Source: a virus
Direction: 5' to 3' (one strand)
Virus record (IMG/VR): IMGVR_UViG_3300042946_000581
Span: 34,691 to 98,690 of that record
DNA: 64,000 nucleotides
The notes under the pieces: generated by a model
What the model saw: the letters and a program-made list of their open reading frames with translations, nothing else
What the model was told of the DNA's origin: nothing
The model's database searches: none
Shown: in pieces, positions 4,631 through 63,984 of the stretch
Layout: each line of letters opens with the position of its first letter
Position numbering within the stretch: the first letter of the stretch is position 1
Translations under genes and position numbers: made by a program

Positions 4631-4636
4631 AATATA

Positions 4637-4868: not shown

Positions 4869-4871
4869 AGA

Positions 4872-4884: not shown

Positions 4885-4897
4885 AATTTCATTTGTA

Positions 4898-16139: not shown

Positions 16140-16140
16140 A

Positions 16141-17199: not shown

Positions 17200-17200
17200 A

Positions 17201-18836: not shown

Positions 18837-18890
18837 TTAATTTATATTTTTATAAAAATTAATCAAATATAAAAAAAATCAAGAGTTACT

Positions 18891-19748: not shown

Positions 19749-19753
19749 ATATA

Positions 19754-22622: not shown

Positions 22623-22627
22623 AAAAA

Positions 22628-23221
22628 CTATTTTTTTATTCCCCAAAAATACAAATCATGATGATTTGTCTCAATTTCAAATTCATAAGATGAAAAAATA
22701 CCATCAACATCTATACAAGATCTTATATCTTCTTCTGTTACATTTCTATAATAATCAGAATCCCAATCTTCTCTAAATACATTTGGCATAGTAATCCAAT
22801 TATCTGAAGAATTACCTTGTAATGTTAATCGTTTCTCTCTATCTATTTTATCTTGCGTTCTTGTTCCATGAACTGGTCTACCAGTTGTTGCACAAGTAAA
22901 TATAAAATAACCACCCGATTTTAACATCCTTACCGAATTTTGAATACTTTCTTTATAAAACGGATTATGCTCCCAACACTCACAAGATATTATAGTGTCA
23001 AATGATTCATCAGGAGCATCATATTCATTTGCAGGACAAACAACATCAACTCCTTTTCCTGGCCCTATATCCAGTCCTATAAAATCACAATTATCAAACC
23101 ACGGTTCTTCATTTCCATTAACATCAAATGACCCAATGTCTAATACTTTACAGTTTGTAAATGCTGATGGATATTTTAATTTTAATTTATCTAAGTATGC
23201 TTTTTGTTCTTTATGTGCCAT
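22628..23221 (-). CDS. SAM-dependent methyltransferase (Methyltransf_11 type)
   Basis: 197 aa. Motif I VLDIGSFDVNGNEEPW, GLDIGPGKGVDVVCPA, DTIISCECWEHNPFY and SVRMLKSGGYFIFTCATTGR are the ordered class I methyltransferase motifs. Residues 100-170 continue with a GRPVHGTRTQDK substrate-side loop. Probably modifies a sugar or surface glycan precursor given the neighbours. Confidence 0.85.
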   Translation of the reverse strand: MAHKEQKAYLDKLKLKYPSAFTNCKVLDIGSFDVNGNEEPWFDNCDFIGLDIGPGKGVDVVCPANEYDAPDESFDTIISCECWEHNPFYKESIQNSVRMLKSGGYFIFTCATTGRPVHGTRTQDKIDREKRLTLQGNSSDNWITMPNVFREDWDSDYYRNVTEEDIRSCIDVDGIFSSYEFEIETNHHDLYFWGIKK

Positions 23222-23222
23222 C

Positions 23223-23894
23223 TTATATTTTTATTTTTTTTATTATGTTAAAAGCTTCAGCTACTTTTAAACCACACTCAAAACCTCTATAATTAGCATG
23301 TGACCTTATTCCAACTTCACCTAGCTTATCTCTTTTAGTTGTTGTATATTGAAGAAGATAATTATCTTTAAATATCTTTATTTTCTCTTCTATTGTATCT
23401 TCTATGTCTTCATATAAATTGGGCTGAAATTTACTTGATGGATCTGACCATGTTGAAGTAGGTATTTCATATGAAATTATCTCTAAGATAAGTCCAACTC
23501 CTGTTGGTCTTACCGCTGAAATACAAGCATTATAAACATCTTTATGTTCTTGATGATAAGAAGGTTCTGGTATGTAAATTACATTTGGTTGGTATGTTCT
23601 AATTAAATCGTCTAACCATCTAACAATTTTATATTGTGGTATTTCTTCTAATCTTGTACCATTAGTTTCAAACTTAGATGGTTCTTCGGTTGAAATAAAT
23701 TCGGCGACTTTTTTAAATTCCATCCATTGTTCTTCTTCAGTTATTGTTCTATTTAAATGGTGTAAAAATCTGTCAGAACATGACATAACAACTACTTTTA
23801 TAGTGTCACCATTTTTTTTTCTTTTCAATAATGTGCCACCAACTCCGAAAAGTTCATCATCAGTATGTGGCGAAATAACTAAAACTTTTGACAT
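23223..23894 (-). CDS. PIG-L/LmbE-family deacetylase
   Basis: 223 aa. Metal-binding motif SPHTDDE at residues 8-14 (family consensus PHPDDE) and the second histidine motif in EPSYHQEHKDVYNA. The family removes N-acetyl groups from GlcNAc-type sugars in glycolipid and glycan synthesis, zinc dependent. Placed between a methyltransferase and glycosyltransferases; a coherent function would be making an amino-sugar acceptor. Confidence 0.85.
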   Translation of the reverse strand: MSKVLVISPHTDDELFGVGGTLLKRKKNGDTIKVVVMSCSDRFLHHLNRTITEEEQWMEFKKVAEFISTEEPSKFETNGTRLEEIPQYKIVRWLDDLIRTYQPNVIYIPEPSYHQEHKDVYNACISAVRPTGVGLILEIISYEIPTSTWSDPSSKFQPNLYEDIEDTIEEKIKIFKDNYLLQYTTTKRDKLGEVGIRSHANYRGFECGLKVAEAFNIIKKIKI

Positions 23895-23896
23895 AA

Positions 23897-24556
23897 TTAA
23901 ATTAATTTTGAATGTTTTTCATATAATATTTTATCATTTTCATCAAATGCTTGTCCGACAAATCTTCCTTTATTTCTGTTTGTTGGAAATTGTTTTTTAT
24001 CTGAATTAAAATTAAAAAATTCATCGTGAATTAAAGAATTATCTTTAACTAATGGGTAAATTTTTTCTCTTAAGAAGTTTTGGTCAACTTGCCAAAAACT
24101 ACCTTTAATATATTCATCTATTAATTTTATCATTTGCGGTAGTACTCCTTTTTTCGAACCCCACATACCACCTAAAATAGCTGTATTATGATAAGGATGG
24201 TCTCTCATTATATGAAAACCTTTATCAGAATTTAACCATTCGTCAACCGCAAGTTTTTCTCTTTCAGAGAGTCTTGAATCGCAATCTCTAGATATCATAA
24301 CATCCACATCTTCTTCTGAAGCCGGATAAAATCTCCAAAACATACCTGTCCAATCCCCATCAACATCCATCTCAACTACTTCAACATGTGAAAATTGTTT
24401 AAGTTGTTCAATAACTTTATAATCAGTGCTTTTACCAATATAAAATCTACAAATCCAACCTGAATAAATTATTGGAGATAATTCAGCATTACGTATTGCC
24501 CCAATTGTATATATTGGGTTATTACCCCATAAAGAAAAACTTATTATTTTTTTCAT
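23897..24556 (-). CDS. Glycosyltransferase-like protein
   Basis: 219 aa. Starts KKIISFSLWGNNPIYTIGAI; VDVMISRDCDSRLSEREKLA places a D-x-D in the usual GT-A position, and FHIMRDHPYHNTAILGGMWG and HDEFF-like end residues fit the acceptor side. This type is common in phage and Bacteroidetes surface glycan clusters. Overlaps the downstream gene of the same block (24553) by 4 bases. Confidence 0.7.
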   Translation of the reverse strand: MKKIISFSLWGNNPIYTIGAIRNAELSPIIYSGWICRFYIGKSTDYKVIEQLKQFSHVEVVEMDVDGDWTGMFWRFYPASEEDVDVMISRDCDSRLSEREKLAVDEWLNSDKGFHIMRDHPYHNTAILGGMWGSKKGVLPQMIKLIDEYIKGSFWQVDQNFLREKIYPLVKDNSLIHDEFFNFNSDKKQFPTNRNKGRFVGQAFDENDKILYEKHSKLI

Positions 24557-25212
24557 AGTTCAAAATTTATTTTTTCTCTTCTCTGAAAAACCATTCTGTC
24601 TTCTCTATTATGAGTTGAATTCAAAGAGTGTATAATATCTCTACCACCATAACCCCAATCAGGATGTTGGTGATGGATAATTACTTTATCTATAAAAATT
24701 TGTTTTTTCAATAAATTACCAACTGTCATAAATTCATTATCAGCCCAAAGTGATTTATAGTCAGGATGATAGATATATCCAAATCTTTCGTAATATTTTT
24801 TACCTAAAATACATAGAGTATTTAAATCTTTTCTATTTCCATCATTGAACCAAAGTATTCCATCTGTGTCAGGATAATTAATGGTCATATTGAATCTTAT
24901 TTGTTCGTCATATCCTTTTTCAATAGGAATCATATCATCAGAGGCAAGTAGAATAATATCCCAATCACCTAATTCAATGTCACGATTAACTGCATGTATT
25001 TTATTATTACTTTTACCAAAAACAAATCTAAGATTTTCATATGATTTTAATTTATCAATGACTTCTTGGTTATTCATTGAGTCATCATCATAATCTAACG
25101 TTATCAAAAACTCAATTTTTGATAAATCTGTTGCAAAGTCATAATACTTTTGAAGTACTTCAAAAAATTTATCTTTTCTGTTTCTTGTTGGGAATTTTAT
25201 TAAAATTTTCAT
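24553..25212 (-). CDS. Glycosyltransferase family 2-like
   Basis: 219 aa. MKILIKFPTRNRKDKFFEVL opens a GT-A domain; FLITLDYDDDSMNNQEVIDK and IILLASDDMIPIEKGYDEQI give the nucleotide-sugar region with D-D-x motif. C-terminus has the acceptor segment DYKSLWADNEFMTVG and WGYGGRDIIHSL. Soluble. Substrate unknown. Confidence 0.75.
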   Translation of the reverse strand: MKILIKFPTRNRKDKFFEVLQKYYDFATDLSKIEFLITLDYDDDSMNNQEVIDKLKSYENLRFVFGKSNNKIHAVNRDIELGDWDIILLASDDMIPIEKGYDEQIRFNMTINYPDTDGILWFNDGNRKDLNTLCILGKKYYERFGYIYHPDYKSLWADNEFMTVGNLLKKQIFIDKVIIHHQHPDWGYGGRDIIHSLNSTHNREDRMVFQRREKINFEL

Positions 25213-25215
25213 ATT

Positions 25216-25782
25216 TTAATGTCTAACATTATACATTACTTCAGGAGTAATTACAAATTTATTTGATTGTTTTTTCAATTCCATCAGAAAATCAAAATCT
25301 TCTCCATCTCTGTTTTGAGAAAAAAACAACTCCTTAAAAATAGTTTTTTTGTAACAAAAAGAAATACCAACTGTTGCAAATTTTAATTCATTTAAATGAA
25401 ATGGAGGTAAAACTAAACCATTTTCATATGTCATTCTCCAAACGACAAAATCATTATTACTATACTTTTCAAAAAGTGTTTTCACATAATCTTTATTGAT
25501 GGTATCGTCATCATCCAAGAAACCAATCCATTTAGTATCAACTAATTTTATACCTTCATTTCTAACCAATCCAGATTGTCCATTTTTAGGACCTACTAAT
25601 CCTGTCTTATCAATCTTAATTGTTTTGACTCTATTATCATCAAATGATTCACCATCAACACCATCATAAACAACTATGGCTTTCCAATTTGGTACAGATT
25701 GTTGTATCAAAGATTGTATAGTTCTTTTAAGTGTTGGTCTATTTAATGATGGTATTATAAATGTTATATTATTCTCAATCAT
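25216..25782 (-). CDS. Glycosyltransferase family 2
   Basis: 188 aa. Classical GT2: FIIPSLNRPTLKRTIQSLIQ at the start, VYDGVDGESFDDNR, IGFLDDDDTINKDYVKTL (D-D-D-D includes the DxD metal site), SFCYKKTIFKELFF and RDGEDFDFLMELKKQ with the catalytic-type ED. Short for the family (about 230-300 aa usual) but all landmarks are present. Confidence 0.85.
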   Translation of the reverse strand: MIENNITFIIPSLNRPTLKRTIQSLIQQSVPNWKAIVVYDGVDGESFDDNRVKTIKIDKTGLVGPKNGQSGLVRNEGIKLVDTKWIGFLDDDDTINKDYVKTLFEKYSNNDFVVWRMTYENGLVLPPFHLNELKFATVGISFCYKKTIFKELFFSQNRDGEDFDFLMELKKQSNKFVITPEVMYNVRH

Positions 25783-25783
25783 A

Positions 25784-27295
25784 TTATTGTGTAAATAAAA
25801 TTTTATCTTTTAATTTCATTAAATTTTTCTTAACAAATGGCGTTAAAGTTTGATTAAAGTCATATTCAATCACTTTCATATTACCCTCAACATATCTAGT
25901 TTTACTTTCATAATGATATGCACTATGTGTTCCTACATTATAATTTTCAAAACCAACAAGTAATAATTTTAGATTTAATTCAACATCTTCAAAACAATCA
26001 ATATATTCCTCGTTAAACATTCCAATTTGTTTGAATGTATTTGTATTAATCATCATCAGTCCTCCTGTATTACCAATAACATTTGTAATATCTTTGTTAA
26101 AGTTATAATACGAACCTTTGTTTTTATTATCAGCAATAAGTGATTTATTTGATAATTTTAAATAAACTAAAATCCCATCGTGTTGAATTGTATTGTCTTC
26201 ATAATGTAGTCTACAACCAACTGTTCCTACTTTAGGTTTAGTCTTAAATACATTTAACATACCTAATACTACATCTGAGTTTAATTTTATATCATTATTA
26301 CAAAACAAAATATATTGATGGTTTTTGGTTAAATGATTTTTAACCACATCATTATTTATCTTTGCAAAATTATAATAATTATATTTGATTAATTTTATAT
26401 TATCTACACTATTAACCAACTCTTCAATTATATTAATTTCTTCTTCACTTGAACCCGTATCTGCAATAAAAATATCAAATAACATAGGATTACAATGTTC
26501 ATAAAAAGAATCAATACATTGAATTAATAATTCTATATTACCTTTTGTTGGTATAATTACCCCAACTTTACCTTTCAATTTAACATCTTTAATTTTGACT
26601 TCAGGAGTATAAATTGATGTTGGTTTTAAATCCAATGGTAATACATCTTTATATTTTTCAACAAACTTAATTTTACTATCAAAGAATTCTTGATTAGGTT
26701 GTCCTACAGATTCGTGAGTTATTTCAAATGAAGATGTAACCCCAATTTTAATTCCATCCAAATAGTTTGGAACACAAAATCCGTGGTCATAAAAATGGAA
26801 CTTACCAATTGTTTCATCAAATTTATGTTTAATCTTTGTCTTGTCAAAAGATATAAATAACCCATCAATAGTAACAACAGGAATTATAAATGGAAGCTTT
26901 GGTGAATAGTTATTAATCCACTTCTTTTGACCACTAGGATGATGCCAAACTTGTCCAACCATAGTTTGATTCATCCTCTCCCAATAAACCCCTGATTTGG
27001 GAAAATAACAAGAACCAGCCTTCCCAATTACCCCAAATTCGGAGTAATTGGAATAATCCTCCAATAATTTTTTACCCCAATCTTTTTCAAGTTTAATATC
27101 GTTATGACAACAAACAATGATATCATATATTGATTCAGTTATCCCACTATTGTAAACTTCGGCCAAAGAATATTGATTATTGTTTTGATATTCCAATATC
27201 TGAACGTCATTAAAACCCACACTATCTAATAGGTGAGTCTTAAATTTTTCATTATATTCTTTGTCCTTATGTGTTGAGTAAATTATTGTTATCAT
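25784..27295 (-). CDS. Two-domain glycosyltransferase (GT2 fold twice)
   Basis: 503 aa. The N-terminal about 215 residues form one GT-A-like unit (ITIIYSTHKDKEYNEKFKTH, IIVCCHNDIKLEKDWGKKLL). The second begins KVGVIIPTKGNIELLIQCID, followed by FIADTGSSEEEINIIEE, FCNNDIKLNSDVVLGML, GGLMMINTNTFKQIGMFNEE and FEDVELNLKLLL, a full GT2 set with the ED acceptor-side motif. Such fused enzymes make successive glycosidic bonds. Overlaps the next gene by 29 bases. Confidence 0.85.
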   Translation of the reverse strand: MITIIYSTHKDKEYNEKFKTHLLDSVGFNDVQILEYQNNNQYSLAEVYNSGITESIYDIIVCCHNDIKLEKDWGKKLLEDYSNYSEFGVIGKAGSCYFPKSGVYWERMNQTMVGQVWHHPSGQKKWINNYSPKLPFIIPVVTIDGLFISFDKTKIKHKFDETIGKFHFYDHGFCVPNYLDGIKIGVTSSFEITHESVGQPNQEFFDSKIKFVEKYKDVLPLDLKPTSIYTPEVKIKDVKLKGKVGVIIPTKGNIELLIQCIDSFYEHCNPMLFDIFIADTGSSEEEINIIEELVNSVDNIKLIKYNYYNFAKINNDVVKNHLTKNHQYILFCNNDIKLNSDVVLGMLNVFKTKPKVGTVGCRLHYEDNTIQHDGILVYLKLSNKSLIADNKNKGSYYNFNKDITNVIGNTGGLMMINTNTFKQIGMFNEEYIDCFEDVELNLKLLLVGFENYNVGTHSAYHYESKTRYVEGNMKVIEYDFNQTLTPFVKKNLMKLKDKILFTQ

Positions 27296-28007
27296 TATAC
27301 ATAAAATTAAGTGCTGTTAAATCTTCAATCTCATTAAAATTGTGTGAGATGTGATGTTTAATATCAAGTGTTTGTTTTGAATTTGCTCTACCTCTATTAA
27401 TTTTTTCATTAAACTCTTCAATTGTTTTTGAGAAATAATGATTAAGTTGAGCAATATCAATTGACGCATTTTTATTAAATGGTCCTTCATTTTTTAATTT
27501 GTTAGTATCATACCATTTAGAATTAATACAATGTGGATTTATAAAATGAGAAGTATGATTAAGTTTTGTTATTGTTTTTATATGTTGATTTATTGAATTT
27601 TGTCTTTTAGTAAATCTTTGTAACAAAGAATAATTATTATTAACAACTTCAGTTAATCCATTATCACCAAATAATACCCAATTAATACCTAACGTTGGAT
27701 AATCTTTATAATCGAGTAAAAAATCTTTAATATTTTTATGTTTTTTTAAAACTAAAAACTCATCAACATCAAAAAAAGCAGCCCAATCATATTCAGATTT
27801 ATACTTAGACAAGAATTCATTATAACACTCAACTTGTCTGTGTTTACCATTATATGGTTTTTTTATTATTTTTTCGTTTTCATATTTACAAGTCCAGTCA
27901 TTTTCAAAAATGTATATTTTATCAAAACCTAATTTTAAATGATATTCTACCCATTCCTTTATATAATAGTCTTCATTTTTGGCTATACAAACTAAACAAA
28001 CTCTCAT
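27267..28007 (-). CDS. Glycosyltransferase family 92/Glyco_tranf_2_4
   Basis: 246 aa. CLVCIAKNEDYYIKEWVEYH followed by LGFDKIYIFENDW and AAFFDVDEFLVLKKH is the signature of GT92-type transferases (K-N-E start, D-V-D-E metal site). NWVLFGDNGLTEV and HFINPHCI complete the domain. Reads as a complete single-domain enzyme. Confidence 0.85.
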   Translation of the reverse strand: MRVCLVCIAKNEDYYIKEWVEYHLKLGFDKIYIFENDWTCKYENEKIIKKPYNGKHRQVECYNEFLSKYKSEYDWAAFFDVDEFLVLKKHKNIKDFLLDYKDYPTLGINWVLFGDNGLTEVVNNNYSLLQRFTKRQNSINQHIKTITKLNHTSHFINPHCINSKWYDTNKLKNEGPFNKNASIDIAQLNHYFSKTIEEFNEKINRGRANSKQTLDIKHHISHNFNEIEDLTALNFMYNDNNNLLNT

Positions 28008-28564
28008 TTTTTTAAAATTGCAATATTGATTAATCCATCTTGGAAATCACTTTTAGTGACTTCATAATTTTTATTTTCTAAAAACTCGTGTAGATATTTA
28101 TTTTCTCCGTGAACAAATTCGTAATATATTGTATCAATTTTTATATTATCAAAATCAATACTTTTTATTATTTTATGGTCATAACTTTCAGCATCAACAA
28201 ATAAAATATCTAAATGATTAATTGAATATTTTTTAAATATATCACTTATAGTCATACATTTCACATTTAACTCAATAATGTTAGTTTGAACTTTATGTTT
28301 TAAAATGTGATTTTTATCAATTGATGATAATCTATGATATTTTTCAGATGTATAAAAAGTAATTGTTTTTTCATCAGGATTATCAGTTATAGCAATATTC
28401 TCAATAATGAAATTAAATTTTTGATAACATTTTTTAATACTTTCATTACAAAAATGTAATGGTTCAATAAATAAAAGAAATTCTATATTATTTGGTGGTA
28501 TCACGTTTAAAATATCTGTAAGATTATCAAACCCCTTATTTGTACCAATTTGAATTATTTTCAT
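28004..28564 (-). CDS. FkbM-family methyltransferase
   Basis: 186 aa. IGTNKGFDNLTDIL at motif I, LLFIEPLHFCNES, NIAITDNPDEKTITFYTSEK and DILFVDAESYDHKIIKSIDF match the FkbM domain order (S-x-K-I, D-x-E-G-x-D type). FkbM enzymes O-methylate sugars or polyketides; sugar methylation fits. Overlaps dUTPase by 4 bases. Confidence 0.85.
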   Translation of the reverse strand: MKIIQIGTNKGFDNLTDILNVIPPNNIEFLLFIEPLHFCNESIKKCYQKFNFIIENIAITDNPDEKTITFYTSEKYHRLSSIDKNHILKHKVQTNIIELNVKCMTISDIFKKYSINHLDILFVDAESYDHKIIKSIDFDNIKIDTIYYEFVHGENKYLHEFLENKNYEVTKSDFQDGLINIAILKK

Positions 28565-29163
28565 ATTCCAGTCGAGCCAAAACCTTTATCCGCTCTGTCA
28601 GTTTTATTTATTTCTTTTTTATTTACCAAATTAACCCACTTTCCATTAACCACAGAAGTTAATACAGCTTGAGCAATCTTCATTCCTTTATTAACCACAA
28701 ATTCGTGATTATTAACATTGAATAGAATAACCTTAACTTCGCCAGTATAACTATTATCAACAGTACCTGGAGAGTTCAATACCATAAGACCTTGTTTTAA
28801 TGCCAAACCACTCTTTGACCTAACTTGAATTTCAAAACCATCTTGGATTTCAAATGCTAATCCTGTTGAAATTAATGCTCTACCAAATGGGGGTAGGACA
28901 ACTTCTTCTGTTGAGTACAAATCAAACCCTGAATCACCATCATAATTATAAGATGGGTCAACTGCTTCAGGATTTAATTTAACGTAACCTAAATCCAATT
29001 TGGTTGTATGATTTAACATATCATTCTCAAGTTCTTCAAGGTTCAATCCAAACTCTTCATATAATTTATTATAATCAATTTCTTCCCCATTCTCATTAGC
29101 TTCAAGTAAGTGTTGTAATTTTATCGCAAATTCACCAATGTTTTCTAAATTGTCTAAACTCAT
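28561..29163 (-). CDS. dut: dUTP diphosphatase
   Basis: 200 aa. All five motifs of trimeric dUTPase are visible: DSGFDL (77-82), RSKSGL (115-120), GTVDNSYTGEVK (133-144) with catalytic Asp, GMKIAQ (160-165) and RADKGFGSTG (190-199). It hydrolyses dUTP to dUMP, keeping uracil out of phage DNA and feeding dTTP synthesis. A helical extension of about 58 residues precedes the catalytic core and is absent from typical 150-aa enzymes. It is wedged in the glycan block, with 4-base overlaps on both sides. Confidence 0.95.
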   Translation of the reverse strand: MSLDNLENIGEFAIKLQHLLEANENGEEIDYNKLYEEFGLNLEELENDMLNHTTKLDLGYVKLNPEAVDPSYNYDGDSGFDLYSTEEVVLPPFGRALISTGLAFEIQDGFEIQVRSKSGLALKQGLMVLNSPGTVDNSYTGEVKVILFNVNNHEFVVNKGMKIAQAVLTSVVNGKWVNLVNKKEINKTDRADKGFGSTGI

Positions 29164-29870
29164 TTTAATTCTTTTAATTTTTTAATTATTTCTATTAATA
29201 CATTTACATCTTTTTCACAATATTCTTTTATCCCTTCCAAGTTTTGTTTTTCCCAATATTCATTATGAACATTCTGACCAATTACTTCACCATTCTTTGG
29301 TGTCTCAACTCCAATATTTGAACACAACAAATCCAAAGAACCAATAGATGTATATGCCCCATATTGCCAAATTTCTTTGGTATCAATGGCTTTTATTTCC
29401 CAAGGTTTGGTATCATATGAAGGTAATATTGATGGTGGCATTAAACCATTAATAATCATTCGTTTTGCCAACATTGGAATGTCAAAATTTTTAAGATTAT
29501 GACCACACAGCCAAAAATCAAGTTTCCCACATTTAATTAATAATTTTTGAACATCTAACAAAAGTTTATGTTCGTCATTACCATAAAATGTTTGTTTTCT
29601 AACTGACCCATCATCTAGTACAAATGCAAAACTTATACAGATAATTTTAGCAAACTCAGGTATAAGTCCAGTTCTTGTACTAAAGACAATATTTTTTTGG
29701 TCAATTTCAATGTTAGAATCTTCAGGAAATCTTTTAAGAAACCAATCAAAATATTTATCAAATTGGTCAGCAACAGATGGGTTTAATGTTGAACATACAT
29801 CATAGTTTGGACAACACCCAACGGTTTCAATGTCCATAAAAAGAATCTTGGTTATTGGTTGTTTAATCAT
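29160..29870 (-). CDS. DnaQ-like 3'-5' exonuclease
   Basis: 236 aa. Exo I ILFMDIETVG (D-x-E at about residues 12-14), Exo II region CGHNLKNFDIPMLAKRM (N-x-x-x-F-D) and Exo III YCEKDVNVLIEIIK (Y-x-x-x-D). This is the RNase H-fold DEDDy pattern of PolB-like and proofreading exonucleases. Because the DNA polymerase at 56338 has its own exonuclease motifs, this one is likely for repair, recombination or RNA/DNA processing. Confidence 0.85.
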   Translation of the reverse strand: MIKQPITKILFMDIETVGCCPNYDVCSTLNPSVADQFDKYFDWFLKRFPEDSNIEIDQKNIVFSTRTGLIPEFAKIICISFAFVLDDGSVRKQTFYGNDEHKLLLDVQKLLIKCGKLDFWLCGHNLKNFDIPMLAKRMIINGLMPPSILPSYDTKPWEIKAIDTKEIWQYGAYTSIGSLDLLCSNIGVETPKNGEVIGQNVHNEYWEKQNLEGIKEYCEKDVNVLIEIIKKLKELK

Positions 29871-29874
29871 AATT

Positions 29875-31089
29875 TTATTTTATTAATGATTTGTAAAAAG
29901 AAGCTCTTGTTTTTGTAACATTTCTTAAATCGTACTTGTCTTTAACACTCTCATACAATCTTTCCCCAAGGTCGGTAATTAAATTGGGATTATGAACTAA
30001 AGTCTTAATATATTTCGCCCAATCACTATGATTTCTATTCTCGTGAACTAATAGAGCATTACCATCTCCAAAAATACCATTTTTCATTGTGTGATTCAAG
30101 TCAATTGTATAAGGACCAACTTCAGAAGCAATTAAAGCTTTTTTATAAAACCCAGCCTCAATAACTTTCAATTGAGACTTTACCCTATTAAAGATATGAT
30201 TTTTAATTGGTGCCATTGAAATATCAAACTTGGAATAATTTGTTGCATAAGTATTAATGTGTTTTGTCCAAACACGTCTATAAGGTAATGTTGTTGGATT
30301 TGGATATTCTTCATCTTTAAATTGATTTAAAAAGTTTTTATAGCCTTCGTCAATAATTGAATATTTGTTTGTGAAAATTTCTTCATATCTAACCCATACA
30401 GTTTCTTCAGGTTTAATAGGTCTTTGTTTTCTTTCACCAGTTGTTTGATTTATTTCAGTCACCGAACCTCTAGTATCAAAACCACACAATACATATTGAA
30501 CTTTATCTTTCAAATTTGCATTTTTACCAACAAATCCCTCCAATAGTTTTAAGTCGTGAAGATGTGAAGAACCACCTAACCATCCAACTCTAACTCTCTC
30601 AGATTCTTCTGTTGGTTGATTAAATTGTGACTCAGTAGGATTAATCGCATTAGGTAATATCACAACATTCCTATTCAGTTTTCTTATTTCATCTGCAAAG
30701 ATATTTGTTGTTGTTGTAACATAACTTGCGACTTTTAAGTTCGCCATAATCTTCTCGTGTATCTTATCTTGAACAATCAATGAATGTATTGGGTGTTCTT
30801 TTCCAGGTAGCCAATAATCATCCAAATCTACAATAACAACAATACCAAGTGATTTTAAAAAATTAATTAATGTTGGTGTTTGTTCATAAGTGTGTCCAAT
30901 ATTTCTATGAATATGAACAATTTGATATTGTTTCCAATAATTAACATTATTAATCTGTGGTTGATAATCTATATCCACATGAAAGTCATCTGGATACATA
31001 TTTTGTAACATAACATGGGGATCTACAGAACGAAATTTTCCTACACCGGTTGTGTCACTTGGGAGTACAAGTACTTTTATTTTTGACAT
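29875..31089 (-). CDS. GT-B fold glycosyltransferase (404 aa)
   Basis: 404 aa. N-terminal half: GVGKFRSVDPHVMLQNMYP, VHIHRNIGHTYEQ, VVIVDLDDYWLPGKEHPIHS; linker VVILPNAINPTE; C-terminal donor half: VRVGWLGGSSHLHDLKLLEG, FDISMAPIKNHIFNRVKSQL, IEAGFYKKALIASEVGPY. The order and motifs fit GT4-like enzymes with the R/K and E-x7-E loop. Topmost gene of the block; a strong terminator for the opposite direction of travel is not seen upstream, but a minus-strand terminator lies at 31164-31197, so this gene starts a new transcript. Confidence 0.8.
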   Translation of the reverse strand: MSKIKVLVLPSDTTGVGKFRSVDPHVMLQNMYPDDFHVDIDYQPQINNVNYWKQYQIVHIHRNIGHTYEQTPTLINFLKSLGIVVIVDLDDYWLPGKEHPIHSLIVQDKIHEKIMANLKVASYVTTTTNIFADEIRKLNRNVVILPNAINPTESQFNQPTEESERVRVGWLGGSSHLHDLKLLEGFVGKNANLKDKVQYVLCGFDTRGSVTEINQTTGERKQRPIKPEETVWVRYEEIFTNKYSIIDEGYKNFLNQFKDEEYPNPTTLPYRRVWTKHINTYATNYSKFDISMAPIKNHIFNRVKSQLKVIEAGFYKKALIASEVGPYTIDLNHTMKNGIFGDGNALLVHENRNHSDWAKYIKTLVHNPNLITDLGERLYESVKDKYDLRNVTKTRASFYKSLIK

Positions 31090-31834: not shown

Positions 31835-32224
31835 TTATATTATATCAAATTTTGCGTTTATTATTACTCTATCCATACTTTTATCACCATTTGGATTATA
31901 GTTTGGTCTAGGTGTTTCAAATTTCTCTCCACTTGGTTTTAAGGATAATATTTTATCTAACCTAAACAATCTCCAACTTGGGAGAGGTCTTTTACCAATA
32001 TAATCTCTATGAGATGAACCTTCAATATCCCAAGCTCTTAAAACTGGATTACCCGCTTTACTATAACCAAAACAAACTGGTTCTATTTCACGCAATCCAC
32101 GACCTCCAGGTTCATCACCATTATAGTAAATGATAATTTTATTTTTCTTTTTGATGGCATCAATGACACTATCAATTGACGCCATTTCTAAGATAAGAGA
32201 TTTAGTAATGTTGTAAAGTTTCAT
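31835..32224 (-). CDS. WYL-like domain protein
   Basis: 129 aa. N-terminus MKLYNITKSLILE-M (I-L-E at 11-13) resembles the targeting peptides described here. Then IIIYYNGDEPGGRGLREIEP with CFGYSKAGNPVLRAWDIEGS and LPSWRLFRLDKILSLKPSG is the core of a WYL-type SH3-like beta fold (strand, R-x-I-x-P, then R-L-D-K-I). WYL domains bind nucleic acid or small ligands in regulators. Here it has no DNA-binding partner domain. Stop and start overlap the next gene by one base. Confidence 0.65.
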   Translation of the reverse strand: MKLYNITKSLILEMASIDSVIDAIKKKNKIIIYYNGDEPGGRGLREIEPVCFGYSKAGNPVLRAWDIEGSSHRDYIGKRPLPSWRLFRLDKILSLKPSGEKFETPRPNYNPNGDKSMDRVIINAKFDII

Positions 32225-32518: not shown

Positions 32519-32992
32519 TTAAATTATTGTTTTAATTATTTCATTTATTCTTTTTAGACTTTCGGTTACTTCTAAATTATATGTCGCCAATGTATTTTTA
32601 TGTTGTTGGCTTGGCCTATTATCATAACTTAAGTTTTGATTTTTTTGATGGGTTTGAATATATTGATTTGGGAGAACAGTGGATTTAATATCTTTTGACA
32701 TATCAACATTGTCCCTCATTGATGTTAATGTATTATTAACCCAAGTTTTAACATAGTCCGCTCCATTCAATATAAAAGGCATATCAGTTTTATCTCCAGT
32801 GTAATTATCAAAGAAGTTTTTCATTCTTTTTAATTGTTGATAAGTCACAAATCCAGAATCTCTTAATTCTTTATTTCTTCTATATCCTTCAGTTTTATCG
32901 TTGGCGTTGGGGATAGAATCATTGCATTGTTTTAAATAAAAAACAATTTGTTCAGGTAACTCAATTTTATCTCCGTACAAATCCTTATTCAT
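32519..32992 (-). CDS. Hypothetical helical protein (157 aa)
   Basis: 157 aa, charged and helical throughout; contains IVFYLKQCNDSIPNANDKTE and NKELRDSGFVTYQQLKRMKN. No catalytic motif. Overlaps the next gene (32985) by 8 bases. Its neighbours on both sides carry propeptide-like N-termini, so it could belong to the head/core assembly set. Confidence 0.55.
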   Translation of the reverse strand: MNKDLYGDKIELPEQIVFYLKQCNDSIPNANDKTEGYRRNKELRDSGFVTYQQLKRMKNFFDNYTGDKTDMPFILNGADYVKTWVNNTLTSMRDNVDMSKDIKSTVLPNQYIQTHQKNQNLSYDNRPSQQHKNTLATYNLEVTESLKRINEIIKTII

Positions 32993-33833
32993 TTTTCTTT
33001 AAAATATTAATTAATTTATTAATACTTATTCCTTCTTTCTTTGCTAAATTTTTTATTGCTTCTAAGTTCTTGTTTATAATTTTACTCAATCCACTAGCAT
33101 CACTATCTTTTTCCATAATATCGTGATTATTGCCTTTTTTAGTTAAAATGTCCTCAACCATTTTAATCATTTTTTGTTTTCTAATTTCATCTAATTTTTC
33201 TTTTTCTACTAGTCTTTGTTTTAGAACTTTTTTCCCATCTTTTGACCTATGAACTTTTTGTCCCATTAATTTTCCTAATTGTTTAGTTCTATTTAATCTT
33301 TCTTCAGGGTCATCAATTCCTAATTTTTTTAAGGTTTTCATTGTGTTATTGAAGTCCATAAATTCAGTATCATCGTAAGCAAAAGCATCTTTCATATTGA
33401 TTTCATTTACATTGTCGTTCTCTTCATTTTCACCATAAAGTCTACGTCCACCACCATACGCAAATGTAAGTCCTGGTACTCTGGTACTATCAATTGTTTG
33501 ATCCATTGTTTTCTTTGGATGCGTCCACATATTATATATTGGTGTTTTTGACGTTAAAAATGTACCATCAGAGTCAACATATTCATCAAGTTCAACTGAG
33601 TCTAAATCTTTCTCAATTTCTTTTTTTGATGCTTTGTTTTTTAAATTAATATGTTTACCAATTATATTTTTTATTTTGGTGTAACTTTTTTTATTAAATT
33701 TTCTTTTCCCCTCATTTTTCTTTGATTCTGATATTGTACCATAAACAGAATAACTTAACACAAAGTCATTCCCATTACTCTCCAAAAGAAAATAACAATA
33801 ATCATTAAAGTATTCTTTTTTATAATTGTTCAT
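32985..33833 (-). CDS. Capsid-targeted basic protein (282 aa)
   Basis: 282 aa. N-terminus ends DYCYFLLE-S (L-L-E at 16-18), a likely prohead cleavage site. A second junction is possible near VNEINMKDAF. Very rich in Lys and Asp; residues 60-160 contain DPEERLNRTKQLGKLMGQ and the C-terminal 80 residues are long helices (KLDEIRKQKMIKMVEDILTK). This charge pattern is common in internal head or scaffold proteins, but no family is recognised. Its own late box lies 15 bases upstream. Confidence 0.65.
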   Translation of the reverse strand: MNNYKKEYFNDYCYFLLESNGNDFVLSYSVYGTISESKKNEGKRKFNKKSYTKIKNIIGKHINLKNKASKKEIEKDLDSVELDEYVDSDGTFLTSKTPIYNMWTHPKKTMDQTIDSTRVPGLTFAYGGGRRLYGENEENDNVNEINMKDAFAYDDTEFMDFNNTMKTLKKLGIDDPEERLNRTKQLGKLMGQKVHRSKDGKKVLKQRLVEKEKLDEIRKQKMIKMVEDILTKKGNNHDIMEKDSDASGLSKIINKNLEAIKNLAKKEGISINKLINILKKNE

Positions 33834-46266: not shown

Positions 46267-46294
46267 AAAAGGGTGATTTCTCACCCTTTTTTTT
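46265..46294 (+). terminator. Bidirectional terminator
   Basis: GGGTGA, loop TTTC, TCACCC with AAAAAA before and TTTTTTTT after, between the convergent genes ending at 46266 and 46293. It fits a rho-independent terminator on both strands. Confidence 0.85.
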
Positions 46295-47507
46295 ATTTCT
46301 TAATAAATCTATGTGTTTTTATTTCTTGTTCAGTTTCAATTGAGATTACATAAACGCCACTAGGTAAATCGGTAATATCTATTTTCTCCAAATTTGATTT
46401 GATATTATTTTTACTGAATATTTGTTTTCCAATATTATCAATAATCTTTATGCTATAAATTGAATTATCAATAATATGTTTTTGAATTACAAGTTCGTTA
46501 TTGGAAGGTGTAAATGAGAAATTATTATCATTTTTGATTTCAACAACAGAAATATTAGAATATGATGTATGACCACCTTCAACCCATTTTAATCTGTAAT
46601 ATGTATATCCATTTGATGTTGGGGTTTTATCATTAAAGTCAAAAAAAGATTGGTCTGAATTTGTAACATTAACAAATCCAATTGAATCAAATTCAATTCC
46701 ATCTAATGATTTTTCAATAACAAATCCATCAATATATTCATCAAGAATAACATTCCAAAATAAATAAACATCTTTGTTACTCTTTCTGTATTCGGTATTA
46801 AAATATAATAACTCAAGGGGGAATATTGTACAATCATATATTTCCTCAAGAAGAACATTATCAATCCACCATTCTTCACCAGCAGAATTAACTCTACAAA
46901 GTATGTCTACAGCTATTTGAGTCGCACCTGGGGGTATGGTTAATTGTACTACAGAAAATCCATCACCAGTTGTTGTTCTGTTACCACCAGCGGTTGGTGT
47001 ATAAAAAGTTGCTAAACCATTTGCGGTTTTACTTGCAACACCTAAAGTGTTATAATCCCAAAAAGCATTACTGAATCCACGAATACGTATTTCACCAAAA
47101 TATGTGACTCCTCCATTGGTGCTAAGTTGAACTTCAACGAAATCAGTATTGTCAACACCTCTTGTTGTTGCTGCAGGACTTGAGAACACATATGAAGCCA
47201 ATCTAAAAGAGAATCTATGTGTAGAGGTTGGGTTAAGCCCTATAATATTTGGCATAACATACCAATCTTGTTCTACACCTGAAGTTCCATTACCAGCACC
47301 AAATATAACAGCACTTAGGTTTGGGGAAACCGAAGCATTATTAAAAAATCCTGTGTTTGTTGTTGTTGTGTTAGGAGGAGTTCTCCACCAATCGCCAGAC
47401 CAATTAAAGGTCTCCATATTATCAAATGCTATTGTGTCAATACAAGTTTGACTTTTAGCTAAAAAACTTGTTAGAGTTATAATTAATGTAATTAATACTT
47501 TTTTCAT
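46293..47507 (-). CDS. Secreted T9SS cargo with Por secretion tail
   Basis: 404 aa. A signal peptide (KKVLITLIITLTSFLAKSQ) is followed by a MAM/choice-of-anchor-type beta sandwich (residues 25-225: DWYVMPNIIGLNPTSTHRFS, WWIDNVLLEEIYDC). Then a region with LLYFNTEYRKSNKDVYLFWN and FVIEKSLDGIEFDSIGFVN, the fibronectin-like module that precedes sorting tails, and a C-terminal type A tail: VIQKHIIDNSIYSIKIIDNI, GKQIFSKNNIKS, ITDLPSGVYVISIETEQ. Type A tails direct export through PorSS/T9SS to the outer surface, a system confined to Bacteroidetes. A virus encoding such a cargo is unusual; it may be captured from the host. Confidence 0.85.
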   Translation of the reverse strand: MKKVLITLIITLTSFLAKSQTCIDTIAFDNMETFNWSGDWWRTPPNTTTTNTGFFNNASVSPNLSAVIFGAGNGTSGVEQDWYVMPNIIGLNPTSTHRFSFRLASYVFSSPAATTRGVDNTDFVEVQLSTNGGVTYFGEIRIRGFSNAFWDYNTLGVASKTANGLATFYTPTAGGNRTTTGDGFSVVQLTIPPGATQIAVDILCRVNSAGEEWWIDNVLLEEIYDCTIFPLELLYFNTEYRKSNKDVYLFWNVILDEYIDGFVIEKSLDGIEFDSIGFVNVTNSDQSFFDFNDKTPTSNGYTYYRLKWVEGGHTSYSNISVVEIKNDNNFSFTPSNNELVIQKHIIDNSIYSIKIIDNIGKQIFSKNNIKSNLEKIDITDLPSGVYVISIETEQEIKTHRFIKK

Positions 47508-47656: not shown

Positions 47657-47850
47657 CAATAAATGGTTGATGACTTACCAATAAAAGTTATGGTGGTGAA
47701 AAACCATCGGTAGTTGAAAAGGATGGGAAACTTGAATACATCGAAAGATGGTGACTACAGGTTCTCTTACAAGTGCCTAGTAAGCGTAACGACTATACGA
47801 GAGTTAGTTAATAAAAAGGATGACAATATTTGTTTATCCTTTTTTTATTT
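47657..47850 (+). ncRNA. Structured small RNA, about 190 nt, unknown family
   Basis: No gene covers this gap, its GC content is visibly higher than the surroundings, and complementary arms fill it. Visible helices: TGGT/ACCA (47664-67/77-80), ATGGT/ACCAT (47690-94/703-707), GTAGT/ACTAC (47710-14/54-58) enclosing CATC-GAAA-GATG with a GNRA tetraloop (47739-50). Then follows a gapless three-way junction: GTTCT/AGAGT (47761-65/800-804, two G-U pairs), CTTAC/GTAAG (47766-70/80-84) and CGTA/TACG (47785-88/96-99). The GNRA loop supports + strand reading. The promoter above and terminator below agree. It is not tmRNA, RNase P, 6S or a known ribozyme by motif, and I do not recognise it. Confidence 0.8.
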
Positions 47851-48428
47851 TCATAGAGTTTAATTTTAGAACAATTATAATTTTGACTATATAAACGTTC
47901 TCCTTTAATCTGTGTTAATAATTTAATATTAAATAAACCTTTATTTAACTTTTCAATACTTAGTACAATACTATAAGTGGTTATGTCACCATTTGGTAGA
48001 ATTGCATTATGATTTATAAGTTCCATACAAGGTCTTGGTTTTTTTTCCCAATTTATATTTTTTATATATGGATAAATTATTGTATCCATATTTTTTTCAA
48101 TTAAATCTAAACCCTCAAATAATTCAGGGTCTTCAATAGATTCATTGTTCTTGTATTCATCTTCCATCTTACGATTTAATCTCTGAAGCCAATGTTTGGT
48201 TGGTTCAATAAGAATATTATAATTACCCACTTTAAGAGAATCACCAGCATTGTACATTCTTTTAATTTTGTTTTTAATCAAGGCTACATCCTCACTATAT
48301 ATTGGGGCTTTGGCAACACCCTCGTTGATAGGGAATAAATGTTTAATTTCATCAAAATCATAAGCAATAACTTCAATATAGTTATTATTAATTTCTTCTC
48401 TTAATATTTTTTTTATCAAATTTCTCAT
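47808..48428 (-). CDS. Capsid-targeted protein of unknown function (206 aa)
   Basis: 206 aa. N-terminus MRNLIKKILRE-E is a compact targeting peptide (L-R-E at 9-11). The rest contains FDEIKHLFPINEG and a basic region PTKHWLQRLNRKMEDEYKNN, then beta strands (ITTYSIVLSIEKLNKGLFNI). I do not recognise a family; a packaged toxin or nuclease is possible but there is no catalytic motif to point at. Its last codons overlap the ncRNA's terminator on the opposite strand. Confidence 0.65.
   Translation of the reverse strand: MRNLIKKILREEINNNYIEVIAYDFDEIKHLFPINEGVAKAPIYSEDVALIKNKIKRMYNAGDSLKVGNYNILIEPTKHWLQRLNRKMEDEYKNNESIEDPELFEGLDLIEKNMDTIIYPYIKNINWEKKPRPCMELINHNAILPNGDITTYSIVLSIEKLNKGLFNIKLLTQIKGERLYSQNYNCSKIKLYENKKRINKYCHPFY
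47813..47847 (+). terminator. Rho-independent terminator of the ncRNA
   Basis: AAAAAGGAT (47813-47821), 14-base loop, ATCCTTTTT (47836-47844) running into TTT. It lies partly in the 3' coding end of the minus-strand gene 47808-48428. Confidence 0.75.
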
Positions 48429-59512: not shown

Positions 59513-60115
59513 TTATTTAGATTTTACCATATTATAGATATATTCGGCAGCTTTATCAATATTATCAACACCCTTTCTAGTTAGTTCTGTTCTAATTATG
59601 TGTAACATATATTTAAATCTAGAAGCCGAAGGATTGTTACCATAACCTTTAAGTGGTGGGTGTTTTGAATCTAGAAGTCCCTTTTGGTTTAATTCTCTAA
59701 CTTTTCTTACACCAAACTCATCGGCAACTGCCTCATATTTCGCCATTGCTTCAGCCGCATCATCCAAAGGAACTTCGTTTAAATAAAGACCCATCATTTT
59801 TTCAGCACCATATTTTTTAAATTGATATTGATGTGCTAATTCGTGGAAGATAATAAAAAGAGCTTGAGTGGGATTATATTTTTTAAAAATTTGAGGGTTA
59901 ATAACTAATTTGTTATGTAAAGCTAACCCATCAGGACCCGATAACATTTCAAGCGAAACTTTTTTACAATCAGTTTTTTCAAATATTGATTTCACTTCAT
60001 CAATTAGTTCATCACTTAATTTTAATTCGTTTTTTAAGGTTTCAAGAAATTCATCCAAACCTTCAGTAGCTTCTAAAAGAAGTTTATATTGTGATTCTGT
60101 TATTATAATTTTCAT
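59513..60115 (-). CDS. Capsid-targeted HExxH metalloprotease
   Basis: 200 aa. Residues 1-15 (IIITESQYKLLLE, L-L-E at 13-15 before A16) form a targeting peptide with the ITESQ signature. The catalytic core has HELAHQ at 91-96 and a third zinc ligand candidate E128 in YEAVADEFGVRK, the arrangement of ImmA/IrrE-like and M48-like gluzincins. A peptidase inside the capsid could be injected and cut host regulators, or act during assembly. One-base overlap with the neck gene upstream. Confidence 0.75.
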   Translation of the reverse strand: MKIIITESQYKLLLEATEGLDEFLETLKNELKLSDELIDEVKSIFEKTDCKKVSLEMLSGPDGLALHNKLVINPQIFKKYNPTQALFIIFHELAHQYQFKKYGAEKMMGLYLNEVPLDDAAEAMAKYEAVADEFGVRKVRELNQKGLLDSKHPPLKGYGNNPSASRFKYMLHIIRTELTRKGVDNIDKAAEYIYNMVKSK

Positions 60116-61236
60116 TATATTACATATATTTGTCTAGGCATAGCTTGGAATTTCTTTACCTTGTTTAAGTTTTCAGCAATTAACGCTTCTCTCTCCATAA
60201 CCTTTTCTGGTCTTAGTCTTGTTAATTTACCTTCAGCACCAGTTAATTCTTCAAGTAATTTTGTTTTTTCATCCTTACCTTCAGTTGCTAAAGATTGGTA
60301 ATCCATTGTGAGTTCACTATCTGGTGTTTTGATATTACCACTAAACTTACCTCTAACTTTGGATAAAGTTTCCTTGGCTGTGGCAAAGAACCATTTACGT
60401 ACCCAAATTTGAGCTGGATTATTTAAATCAGTCCAACCAATTTTATTAAGTGGAACATCTGATGGTAATTTGATTATATCAGGATTTTTTTTCAAACAAT
60501 CATCTCTATCAGGACCATCAACTTCATAATACCAATACCAAACTCTACCACCCATTAAAGACCTATTACCAAAGTCAAATTTACCTCCAGGTGTTTGCAT
60601 AAGATGTATAGCTTTTTTACCTTCAGGTAGGGCTGTGATACGATAAGTCAAATCACCAGCAATAATTCTTCTTTGGATGTTGACTTCTTGCATCCTTAAT
60701 AACATATCAAAGACAGGCGCCATAAAATATGAACCGGTATTACCCAATTGGGCGAATCCACCAGGTCCACCTACACCGGTACCACCAAAAGCCCCAAATG
60801 AAAAGGCATCAAAAAAAATGTTATTTATTGTGCTAGGTGTAAACCATAATAATTCATTTATTTCTCTACCAGCAGGTATTTCATATATTTGTTGATTATG
60901 TACAAGTTGTATATAATCTTTCTTCATTACATTATCACCACCAGCTTGTAGGCCAACTATTTTTGAATATGCGTAAGAATAACGTTCTTCAAAATCAAAA
61001 CTTTTGGTGATGAATGCTTTGGTTAATGATTCTGTGTCTAAGTTTAAACCATATAATGATGACCATTGAGATTCAATTAACCAATCTTGGATATATTGAG
61101 AATAATCTTCAATTGATAAAGCTAATAATGAATCCAATTGTTCGTCTTCCAATTCAATACTTCTAAGAGGCGCACCTAATAGATGTCTCAATCTTGTGTA
61201 TAGTTGGGTTCTTTCTGGTTCAGGAATTATTGACAT
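60115..61236 (-). CDS. Neck protein, T4 gp13-like
   Basis: 373 aa. Residues 11-55 (TRLRHLLGAPLRSIELEDEQ, LLALSIEDYSQYI) match the start of T4 gp13 (LRRLGAPIINVELTxDQIYD), which seals the portal after packaging and connects to the tail. The centre is beta-rich with a Gly-rich loop (GAFGGTGVGGPGGFA) and WYWYYEVDGPDRDDC; the C-terminus has a helical segment. Longer than T4 gp13 (309 aa). The TATTTAT box at 61252-61258 is 15 bases upstream. Confidence 0.75.
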   Translation of the reverse strand: MSIIPEPERTQLYTRLRHLLGAPLRSIELEDEQLDSLLALSIEDYSQYIQDWLIESQWSSLYGLNLDTESLTKAFITKSFDFEERYSYAYSKIVGLQAGGDNVMKKDYIQLVHNQQIYEIPAGREINELLWFTPSTINNIFFDAFSFGAFGGTGVGGPGGFAQLGNTGSYFMAPVFDMLLRMQEVNIQRRIIAGDLTYRITALPEGKKAIHLMQTPGGKFDFGNRSLMGGRVWYWYYEVDGPDRDDCLKKNPDIIKLPSDVPLNKIGWTDLNNPAQIWVRKWFFATAKETLSKVRGKFSGNIKTPDSELTMDYQSLATEGKDEKTKLLEELTGAEGKLTRLRPEKVMEREALIAENLNKVKKFQAMPRQIYVI

Positions 61237-61263: not shown

Positions 61264-63984
61264 TTAACTATAAAGTAGTTTATTTATTTTATTTTTATAA
61301 AACCTAATAGCTTCAGAAATATTTTCATCGTTTATTCCCAATTCTTTTAATTTGTTTTTATAATAAGACATTCTTTCTTGATAGAGTTTAATTAATTGGT
61401 CTTTATCTTTTTCTAACCTTGGGTTTGTCTTACCTTTTAATTGTGGAGTCATTAACTCTATATTAGTCATATTTGTTTTAAAAGGTTCTTCATAATAGTA
61501 AATGTATTTAGGTATATTTACATCACCTTCAAGATTATTTCTTTTATAATTAGAATTTGGTGTTGTTATTATTTTTGAAAAATCATTATCAAAAATGATA
61601 TATTCTTTATTTTCTTGATTAACATAAACTATTAAATCAACATTTTCTTCTTTATATTTTGTGTGTTCATGCCAAGATGCTACCCTATAATACTTACCCC
61701 TATCAGAATTAAAAAGTTTAACATACCCTTCTTTTATAGATTTTATTTGGAAATGTATTGGTTCTTCATTTTCAAATTTTAAAACAATGTCTTGTCCTTT
61801 TATGGTGTCCGCTTTTGAACCCCCACAATTAAAATTAATTTTATATTCAATATCTTGTTTATATTTATCTAAACCAAAGGCTAAATTAATCATATCTCTA
61901 CCATATTCTTCATTTTTTAAACCTTGTTCAAAGTTTTCAATAGAGACTTTTGCCAATCTATCAATCCATTTTCCATCATTTGAAAATAAATCAACTCTAT
62001 TGTCATCAATCCATTGACGTAATGATATGGAGTATTTTTTTATTTTATTTTCAGTTTTAAATTTTTCAGCTTCTTCTTTATATATTTTTTCTATTTCACT
62101 ATGGACATTACTATTCGCATCCCATCTATTTACTAATGACCAATTACCTTTTCCACCATATCTTTCTTCAGTGTAGTCACCTCCAATAATACCAATATTA
62201 GTTGGACCACATTCTGGTATATTTAAATCACCTTTACAACCATTAACCCAACCTTCAATTGGATTATTACTATCACATTTATTATAAACACTTTGAATTA
62301 TACTGCGCATAGTTCTAAAATTTGGAAAATCAGATTTAGCTTCATTTAATAATTCCCTTTTTGTTATAGATTCAGTTAAATTAATTTTTGATAGGTATAG
62401 TCTATCCGATTTAAATTTAATATTTTCAGATTTGAAAATATAAGAATATCTTTCTTTGGATTGTCCCCCATCATCTTTCACCTCAACATTTTTAAAATCA
62501 AAAAATACATAGTTTTTAATATTATCAATAAATGCAAATATATTAATATTATTAGGTGTATATTTATTTTTACTTTTGAAAACATATTTTACTTGACCAT
62601 CAATATTAGTTTCATATAAATCTCTTGTTGGTTTAACTTGAATATATTCTGAGATATCCTCCCTTGTTAATTTCATATCTTGACCTTTATATTTGTCTCT
62701 AACATCACCATCACAAAATCTAGTAATATTTGAGTTACCATATTCTTTATTCAAGATTTCAAGAGCCAAACTTTCACGAGATGAACCATAATCTAAAGTA
62801 CCCTTTTTAGTTTGGGGATTCATTATAAAATCAGCTAATTCACTAGTAAACATACCATCATCACTTAGTAATGTTTTTTTCAATTTAAAAAACCAACTAA
62901 TAAAATCTAATCCCTCCTTATTGTATTTTTCAAAATATTCTAATATTTTATCACTAACTTTGGTATTAGCATCAAACCAATTTATAACTGACCATTCACC
63001 AATTCCACCTCTTTGACTTACAGCATATTTACCACCTATTACACCATAGTTTGTTTCACAGTCATTAGTTTTAATTTTTCCAAAACAAGGTTCTGTTATG
63101 TGTGTGTCTTTATTATAGTCATTAATAATTTCAGGTGAACATTTTGGATATACTTTAGGTAACATCACATCAAATACCTTTGGATTAATTCTACCATTTT
63201 CCTTAATAAATTCAGTAACCTTACCAAAATCTTTTACTGGGTTGTATTTGAAATTTTTGTATGAACCTTCTTCAGTAATAACTTTATTAGATTTTATAGA
63301 TTCTTTTAATTTTGTTTTTAGTTTTGATAAATAAACATCATTAACAAATTCCCAATTCACAACATCCCAAAATCTTTTAATATATTCATCTCTCTTACTT
63401 TGATATTTCAAATAATAGGCGTGTTCCCACAAATCCAATCCCAATAAAGGATAACCACCATCAATGTCATTCATTTGGGGATTATCTTGATTTGGTGTTG
63501 TCATAATTTTTAATCTATTGTTTTTGGTTAATACCAACCAAGCCCAACCTGACCCAAATCTTCCAATAGATTCTTCTTCAAATTTTTTCTTAAATTCTTT
63601 GTAAGAACCAAATTCTTTATTTATTTTGGTTAATATTTCTCCTTTGATTGTTTGTTTATCAGGTGATAACATTTTCCAAAATAATGAATGGTTGTAAGCC
63701 CCACCACCATTATTTCTAATTACTTTTGGATATCTTGTAATTGATTTAATTATATCTTCCAATTCAACATTACCATAGTTCTTTTTTGATAAGGCATCGT
63801 TAAGTTTTTTAACATATCCTTTATAGTGTTTGTTGTAATGAACATTCATTGTTTTTACATCAATGAATCTGGTTAATGAGTCATAACCATAAGGTAATTT
63901 ATCAATACCAATCTTTTTGGCTTCAGTTATTAAACTTTCACCTAATAATATAGTTTCTTTTAATAGTTCTAATTTCTTTTCCAT
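61264..63984 (-). CDS. Polyprotein: targeting peptide, superoxide dismutase, two nuclease-like domains
   Basis: 906 aa. Residues 1-21 are a targeting peptide ending SLITE-A. Residues 22-238 are a complete Fe/Mn superoxide dismutase: LPYGYDSLTRFI at the start, ligands H49 (VHYNKHY), H99 (YNHSLFW), D184 and H188 (DLWEHAYY), and WDVVNWEFV near the end. At 236-239 lies ITE-E, at 546-549 LNE-A. Residues 239-548 and 549-906 are two copies of one domain: VIGGKYAVSQRGGIGEW / IIGGDYTEERYGGKGNW, INWFDAN / VNRWDAN, and KGQDMKLTREDISEYIQVK / KGQDIVLKFENEEPIHFQIK. The D...Q-x-K arrangement resembles PD-(D/E)XK nucleases with Q instead of E. SOD converts superoxide to hydrogen peroxide. Confidence 0.85.
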   Translation of the reverse strand: MEKKLELLKETILLGESLITEAKKIGIDKLPYGYDSLTRFIDVKTMNVHYNKHYKGYVKKLNDALSKKNYGNVELEDIIKSITRYPKVIRNNGGGAYNHSLFWKMLSPDKQTIKGEILTKINKEFGSYKEFKKKFEEESIGRFGSGWAWLVLTKNNRLKIMTTPNQDNPQMNDIDGGYPLLGLDLWEHAYYLKYQSKRDEYIKRFWDVVNWEFVNDVYLSKLKTKLKESIKSNKVITEEGSYKNFKYNPVKDFGKVTEFIKENGRINPKVFDVMLPKVYPKCSPEIINDYNKDTHITEPCFGKIKTNDCETNYGVIGGKYAVSQRGGIGEWSVINWFDANTKVSDKILEYFEKYNKEGLDFISWFFKLKKTLLSDDGMFTSELADFIMNPQTKKGTLDYGSSRESLALEILNKEYGNSNITRFCDGDVRDKYKGQDMKLTREDISEYIQVKPTRDLYETNIDGQVKYVFKSKNKYTPNNINIFAFIDNIKNYVFFDFKNVEVKDDGGQSKERYSYIFKSENIKFKSDRLYLSKINLTESITKRELLNEAKSDFPNFRTMRSIIQSVYNKCDSNNPIEGWVNGCKGDLNIPECGPTNIGIIGGDYTEERYGGKGNWSLVNRWDANSNVHSEIEKIYKEEAEKFKTENKIKKYSISLRQWIDDNRVDLFSNDGKWIDRLAKVSIENFEQGLKNEEYGRDMINLAFGLDKYKQDIEYKINFNCGGSKADTIKGQDIVLKFENEEPIHFQIKSIKEGYVKLFNSDRGKYYRVASWHEHTKYKEENVDLIVYVNQENKEYIIFDNDFSKIITTPNSNYKRNNLEGDVNIPKYIYYYEEPFKTNMTNIELMTPQLKGKTNPRLEKDKDQLIKLYQERMSYYKNKLKELGINDENISEAIRFYKNKINKLLYS

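Follow-up and report, generated by a model that had tools for sequence, protein, structure and literature searches.

One gene in a 64-kb stretch of viral DNA (the window, bases 34691-98690 of a 98.7-kb IMG/VR record) most probably encodes internal head proteins of the T4 type as one modular precursor, which would be cut by an S77 prohead protease so that a superoxide dismutase (SOD) and nucleases are packaged; cleavage, packaging, injection and the enzymatic activities are all inferred. The gene (window 61264-63984, minus strand) is a single open reading frame (ORF) of 906 aa with an ATG start, and the reading of its product as packaged and cleaved is strongly supported by sequence comparison, not by experiment.

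Leader, SOD domain and predicted cleavage sites

The Fe/Mn SOD occupies residues 22-228 or 22-238 (63271-63921, minus strand). Both Pfam SOD domains were matched within residues 27-216 (Sod_Fe_N, 5.9e-21; Sod_Fe_C, 5.7e-40), the top PDB sequence match was the S. aureus Mn/Fe SOD 5n56 (E = 1.6e-60), and the metal ligands H49, H99, D184 and H188 as well as the gateway residues H53/Y57 are present and essentially invariant across 127 relatives. An earlier reading of the DNA from its letters alone (the sequence-only reading) had claimed a complete Fe/Mn-SOD with four metal ligands, and the domain is indeed a complete Mn-type SOD, for which dismutase activity is inferred. The phage SODs form a single clade separate from cellular SODs (98/85).

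In front of the SOD lies a putative capsid-targeting propeptide, MEKKLELLKETILLGESLITE (residues 1-21; 63922-63984, minus strand), with the sites LKE10↓T and ITE21↓A, the arrow marking the predicted cut; this is the 21-residue N-terminal peptide ending in ITE-A that the sequence-only reading had described, and the ITE-E after the SOD and the LNE-A between the domain copies also stand where it placed them (ITE↓E239 and LNE↓A549). Each junction, however, carries two sites, which that reading had not reported: in addition to the leader pair, LKE228↓S (63301-63309) and ITE238↓E (63271-63279) follow the SOD with a spacing of 10 residues, and LTE538↓S (62371-62379) and LNE548↓A (62341-62349) separate the two C-terminal domains, all on the minus strand. 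LKE228↓S recurs at the same spot in most relatives, SOD-only proteins included. The SOD piece of about 217 aa proposed earlier keeps its site at ITE238↓E, although the product may be residues 22-228 instead of 22-238, because LKE228↓S is the first site of the post-SOD pair.

In an AlphaFold2 model of residues 215-906 (pLDDT 83.5), two folded domains were predicted, with low confidence at residues 215-247 and 537-550, where the predicted sites lie; burial of the sites inside folded domains, which would have refuted the proposal, is not what the model predicts, both inner sites being disordered. Seven of the 18 [LI]xE triplets in the protein lie in leader or disordered linker, which together make up 82 residues; this exceeds chance (P = 5e-4), and the comparison with relatives strengthens it considerably. 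The remaining 11 of the 18 are within folded regions, so a triplet by itself is not enough to mark a site; the motif is short, and no proteomics are available for this phage. An extra L/I-x-E pair was observed at positions 881 and 891, ten residues apart (residues 879-891; window 61312-61350, minus strand), at the C-terminal helical hairpin of the last domain, and is also found in single-domain relatives.

IMG/VR contains 243 relatives of the SOD part. An [I/L/V]-x-E stands immediately before the SOD core in 127/127 distinct viral SODs compared to 0/55 cellular SODs, with Glu at P1, I/L/V at P3 and L/F/I at P4 in all 127 proteins and P2 free, and [ILV]xE is kept in all of 37 leaders that are mutually <60% identical. 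Leader substitutions are distributed over the codon positions as 577/221/766, a bias which indicates that the leader is translated and evolves as coding sequence and on which an artefactual leader was rejected. Among non-redundant post-SOD linkers, at least one [LI]xE was found in 46/46 (27.9 expected from shuffles), 97 such triplets were counted in total (40 expected) at a density six times that inside the SOD, and two sites exactly 10 residues apart were present in 26/46 (0.57 expected; maximum 4 in 2000 shuffles). Cleavage-type sites are thus conserved at every module boundary, whereas the flanking sequence is not. A post-SOD site is present without any following cargo in L016, L024 and L030, and is missing in the SOD-only relatives L044 and L080. 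Genome-wide, [LI]xE is enriched in the N-terminal 45 residues of proteins (21-27 vs ~13.6 per 1000), which is not used as a main argument since the enrichment is modest and concentrated in a subset of proteins.

These linkers bear on whether the protein might be packaged unseparated, the fusion entering the head, shedding its leader only and acting as an SOD-tethered nuclease. Many relatives do retain the SOD-nuclease fusion and the linkers might be mere flexible tethers, but paired L/I-x-E sites at fixed spacing in otherwise divergent linkers, together with post-SOD sites that exist even where no cargo follows, fit processing and not tethering, and we regard an unseparated fusion as unlikely. 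It is very improbable that the gene is a cytosolic auxiliary gene whose SOD is made during infection and protects the cell, with leader and linkers incidental. Such a role could draw on the Met found at P1', right after the leader Glu, in 106/127 relatives, where an internal start could yield a leaderless SOD, and on plain leaderless SOD genes in other phages (e.g., MW462191 and Vibrio phage 2.275.O); against it, substitutions in the leader follow a coding pattern, the residue at this position is Ala instead of Met in the window protein, the same leader type is found on unrelated neighbours and free nucleases, and the gene is syntenic with a head-tail adaptor gene.

Nuclease-like domains and exchangeable cargo

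Homology between domain A (residues 239-548; 62341-63270, minus strand) and domain B (residues 549-906; 61267-62340, minus strand) was detected at 27% identity (E = 8e-15), in agreement with the two copies of a second domain noted earlier. Both carry an E…D…Q-x-K set (E404, D436 and Q449-x-K451 in A; E692, D732 and Q746-x-K748 in B) that is invariant in alignments of the A/B family (A1: E144, D184, Q198, K200; A4: E190, D222, Q235, K237). The best PDB matches of domain A in Foldseek were I-Ssp6803I (prob 1.00, E = 4.7e-3) and Hjc (prob 0.96-0.99), with TM on target of 0.43-0.51; I-Ssp6803I and the Hjc resolvases are PD-(D/E)XK enzymes, and the match of the predicted A/B structures to the PD-(D/E)XK core is remote but consistent. 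The claim of two nuclease-like domains is therefore supported by invariant residues and fold, which identify A and B as PD-(D/E)XK-like nucleases whose activity remains an inference. No significant match to A/B was found in Pfam, PHROGs, PADLOC profiles or PDB sequences, and none in INPHARED phages or 84,980 cellular genomes.

Two further modules, C and D, occur in relatives. Module C shares the E, D and Q-x-K residues and is homologous to A/B (hhalign 98.6%), while no homology was detectable between D and C modules; D has an invariant E...D...E-x-K set, with no PDB fold match found, a confident model (86.7) in which the site-bearing linker is disordered, and one match in BFVD, to an uncultured marine phage protein. 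By profile, the architectures are SOD alone, SOD-AB, SOD-C, SOD-D, SOD-AB-AB (the window protein) and SOD-AB-D, and the AB, C and D modules also occur as free-standing proteins. On a 62-tip SOD tree the architecture changes at least 19 times, and simple tandem duplication without exchange was rejected on the basis of these changes. The nearest SOD relative in this tree, L003, matches the window gene at 95.9% DNA identity as far as residue ~525; beyond that point D replaces B, a module switch at the A-B junction. MKIIITEEQYRILNEG and MKLIISESQYRKLIES are examples of the leaders with which free D and AB proteins start, and SOD-A-D fusions bear this free-nuclease leader type internally (e.g., KLKKIIITEEQKKLIEA in L003), so that the targeting leader and the inter-domain linker look like one reused signal.

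A constant SOD with variable cargo would also be expected if the SOD were mainly a structural or packaging carrier, its enzymatic activity being secondary or lost. We consider this quite unlikely, as neither the metal ligands nor the gateway residues vary and the free nucleases, having a leader of their own, need no SOD carrier.

Several relatives showed other arrangements. In L010 (6591-7616) and L009, another C-terminal module unlike B, C or D follows SOD-A and had no match in Pfam or PADLOC. In L057 (4917-6346) and L059, the SOD frame ends and the C nuclease goes on in an overlapping different frame, which could reflect a frameshift, decay or an assembly error. A 995-aa ORF from a likely Met in L191 (1096-4080, plus strand) comprises, from N to C terminus, a membrane-type domain, one with a zinc-protease-like HEIQH motif (weak Reprolysin_4 match) and a D nuclease, the two junctions being formed by near-identical linkers, KLEESKKLNIILTEDQYKKL and KLKESKLNIILTEDQYKKLNEM; judged from its sequence, this ORF represents another type of cargo polyprotein in which the predicted sites are paired in the same way.

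Head genes, neighbours and host

A T4 gp21-type prohead protease (Peptidase_S77, 82 bits, above the Pfam cut-off) is encoded outside the window on the same record (G000:C1:27735-28454), adjoining genes for a T4-type Gp23 major capsid protein (MCP) and Gp20 portal just beyond the window; a large terminase is also encoded beyond the window edge. The genome thus has the cognate protease required of a phage with capsid-targeting sequences and internal head proteins. T4 gp21, the founder of the S77 family, cleaves after L/I-X-E (PMC9026906). In the MCPs of 8/8 related records a LINE↓A near residue 61 is kept, which by analogy is the expected MCP maturation region, the propeptide of T4 gp23 being 65 residues. 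Of 20 related records searched for both genes, Peptidase_S77 was found in 4, the same 4 that alone bear an MCP; metagenomic records are incomplete, and this coincidence indicates that the remaining records are fragments without head genes. The S77 gene, the conserved boundary sites and the disordered linkers together lend support to the earlier inference of a packaged precursor cut by the prohead protease, in which cleavage, presence in the virion and injection are still inferred.

The next gene in the same direction (60115-61236, minus strand) encodes a head-tail adaptor (phrog_211, head-tail adaptor Ad2, E = 2.3e-9), which lies 13-58 bp downstream of the SOD gene on the same strand in every relative with enough sequence except the fragment L057. 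It is followed by a protein with a weak SprT-like match (59513-60115, minus strand) whose leader, MKIIITESQYKLLLEA, is as in the standalone nucleases, and which is probably further packaged cargo. About a dozen other proteins of the phage start with similar leaders, e.g., MKKIIKLTESDLIRLVKKVIKEE, MRITESQLNNLVKKIVNE and MKQNMMILSEREIQKLVKQILLKEQ; leader-bearing proteins were noted at window 1386-5788, 6308-6778, 31835-32224, 32985-33833, 47808-48428 and 59513-60115, and at L103:10783-11064 and L103:13819-14844. Their number suggests a large packaged proteome.

The source is a large T4-like phage, and its host appears to be a Bacteroidota-type bacterium: the product of a gene at window 46293-47507 (minus strand) carries a Por_Secre_tail domain (E = 3.4e-9), which serves sorting in type IX secretion and points to a Bacteroidota host, and this product is possibly secreted; by MCP, Flavobacterium phages are among the nearest cultured relatives. 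A long series of apparent glycosyltransferase, methyltransferase and deacetylase-like genes (window 15345-31089, minus strand), judged by eye, suggests glycan synthesis or modification.

Proposed route, known systems and significance

By analogy with T4 internal proteins, the leader of ~21 aa would bring the precursor into the prohead core, and during head maturation the phage's S77 protease would cut after L/I-x-E, removing the leader and releasing the short linkers that lie between the two sites of a pair. What stayed in the capsid would be the SOD in its mature, Mn-type form and two PD-(D/E)XK nucleases, all of which would probably enter the next cell together with the DNA. There, host, plasmid or rival DNA could be the target of the nucleases, and the SOD could remove superoxide early in infection; alternatively, it could protect the virion.

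The T4 capsid-targeting leader sends proteins, including nucleases fused to it in the laboratory, into the head, where it is cut by gp21, and ejection then carries the mature proteins into the host (PMC9026906); T-even phages carry diverse defence-related internal proteins (PMC3012670). The window protein resembles T4 IPI-III and Alt in its short leader ending in L/I-x-E, the S77 protease and the T4-type head genes (PMC9026906, PMC3012670), and the SOD family resembles the T4 and T-even internal proteins in that cargo varies behind a conserved targeting signal (PMC3012670). It differs from IPI-III and Alt in being one chain of several enzymes with internal paired cleavage sites, and in a cargo that consists of SOD and nucleases where T4 has anti-restriction proteins or an ADP-ribosyltransferase. 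Engineered T4 fusions of the targeting sequence or IPIII to EcoRI or staphylococcal nuclease place a nuclease in the head through a cleavable leader, as proposed here (PMC9026906), but these are laboratory constructs, whereas the SOD-polyprotein family is natural and widespread. The ejection proteins of phiKZ and SPN3US are likewise processed inner-head proteins with several sites per propeptide, but their protease motif is S/A-x-E and their propeptides are much longer (PMC5694885). SOD in the virions of eukaryotic giant viruses is likewise a packaged enzyme against redox stress, although the example of Megavirus is a Cu,Zn-SOD of unrelated fold and not part of a polyprotein (PMC9405923).

A cultured hint for packaged SOD comes from the Pseudomonas jumbo phage PA5oct, whose genome encodes an S77 protease. 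Its SOD-like protein EST35_0261 (L342:974-1522), annotated 'hypothetical, ESI-MS/MS', resembles the window protein in its Fe/Mn-SOD domain and a possible (S)IAE↓A leader, MNDSIKKYISIAE↓A, and differs in being very divergent (25%), single-domain and without nuclease cargo. The ESI-MS/MS annotation does not itself state 'virion'; a structural proteomics analysis of PA5oct exists (PMC6950013). In open-licence literature we found no relevant paper on phage-encoded SOD in virions or on phage head polyproteins.

It is likely that a T4-like phage lineage has a self-dissecting capsid polyprotein in which a constant SOD and one or two exchangeable nucleases are released at paired sites and injected, a natural modular delivery system whose paired linker also joins other domains (L191). 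We know of no SOD among the phiKZ and SPN3US ejection proteins, of no earlier natural case of a phage head polyprotein cut into several enzymes, and of none in which an Fe/Mn-SOD is packaged with nucleases by a T4-type route; if true, the finding would be the first known of both of the latter. It adds nuclease families unseen in the searched phage records or cellular genomes, offers paired L/I-x-E linkers as a sequence signature for finding phage-delivered effectors, and raises the testable questions of what a newly arrived phage would need SOD for and how packaged nucleases spare its own DNA.
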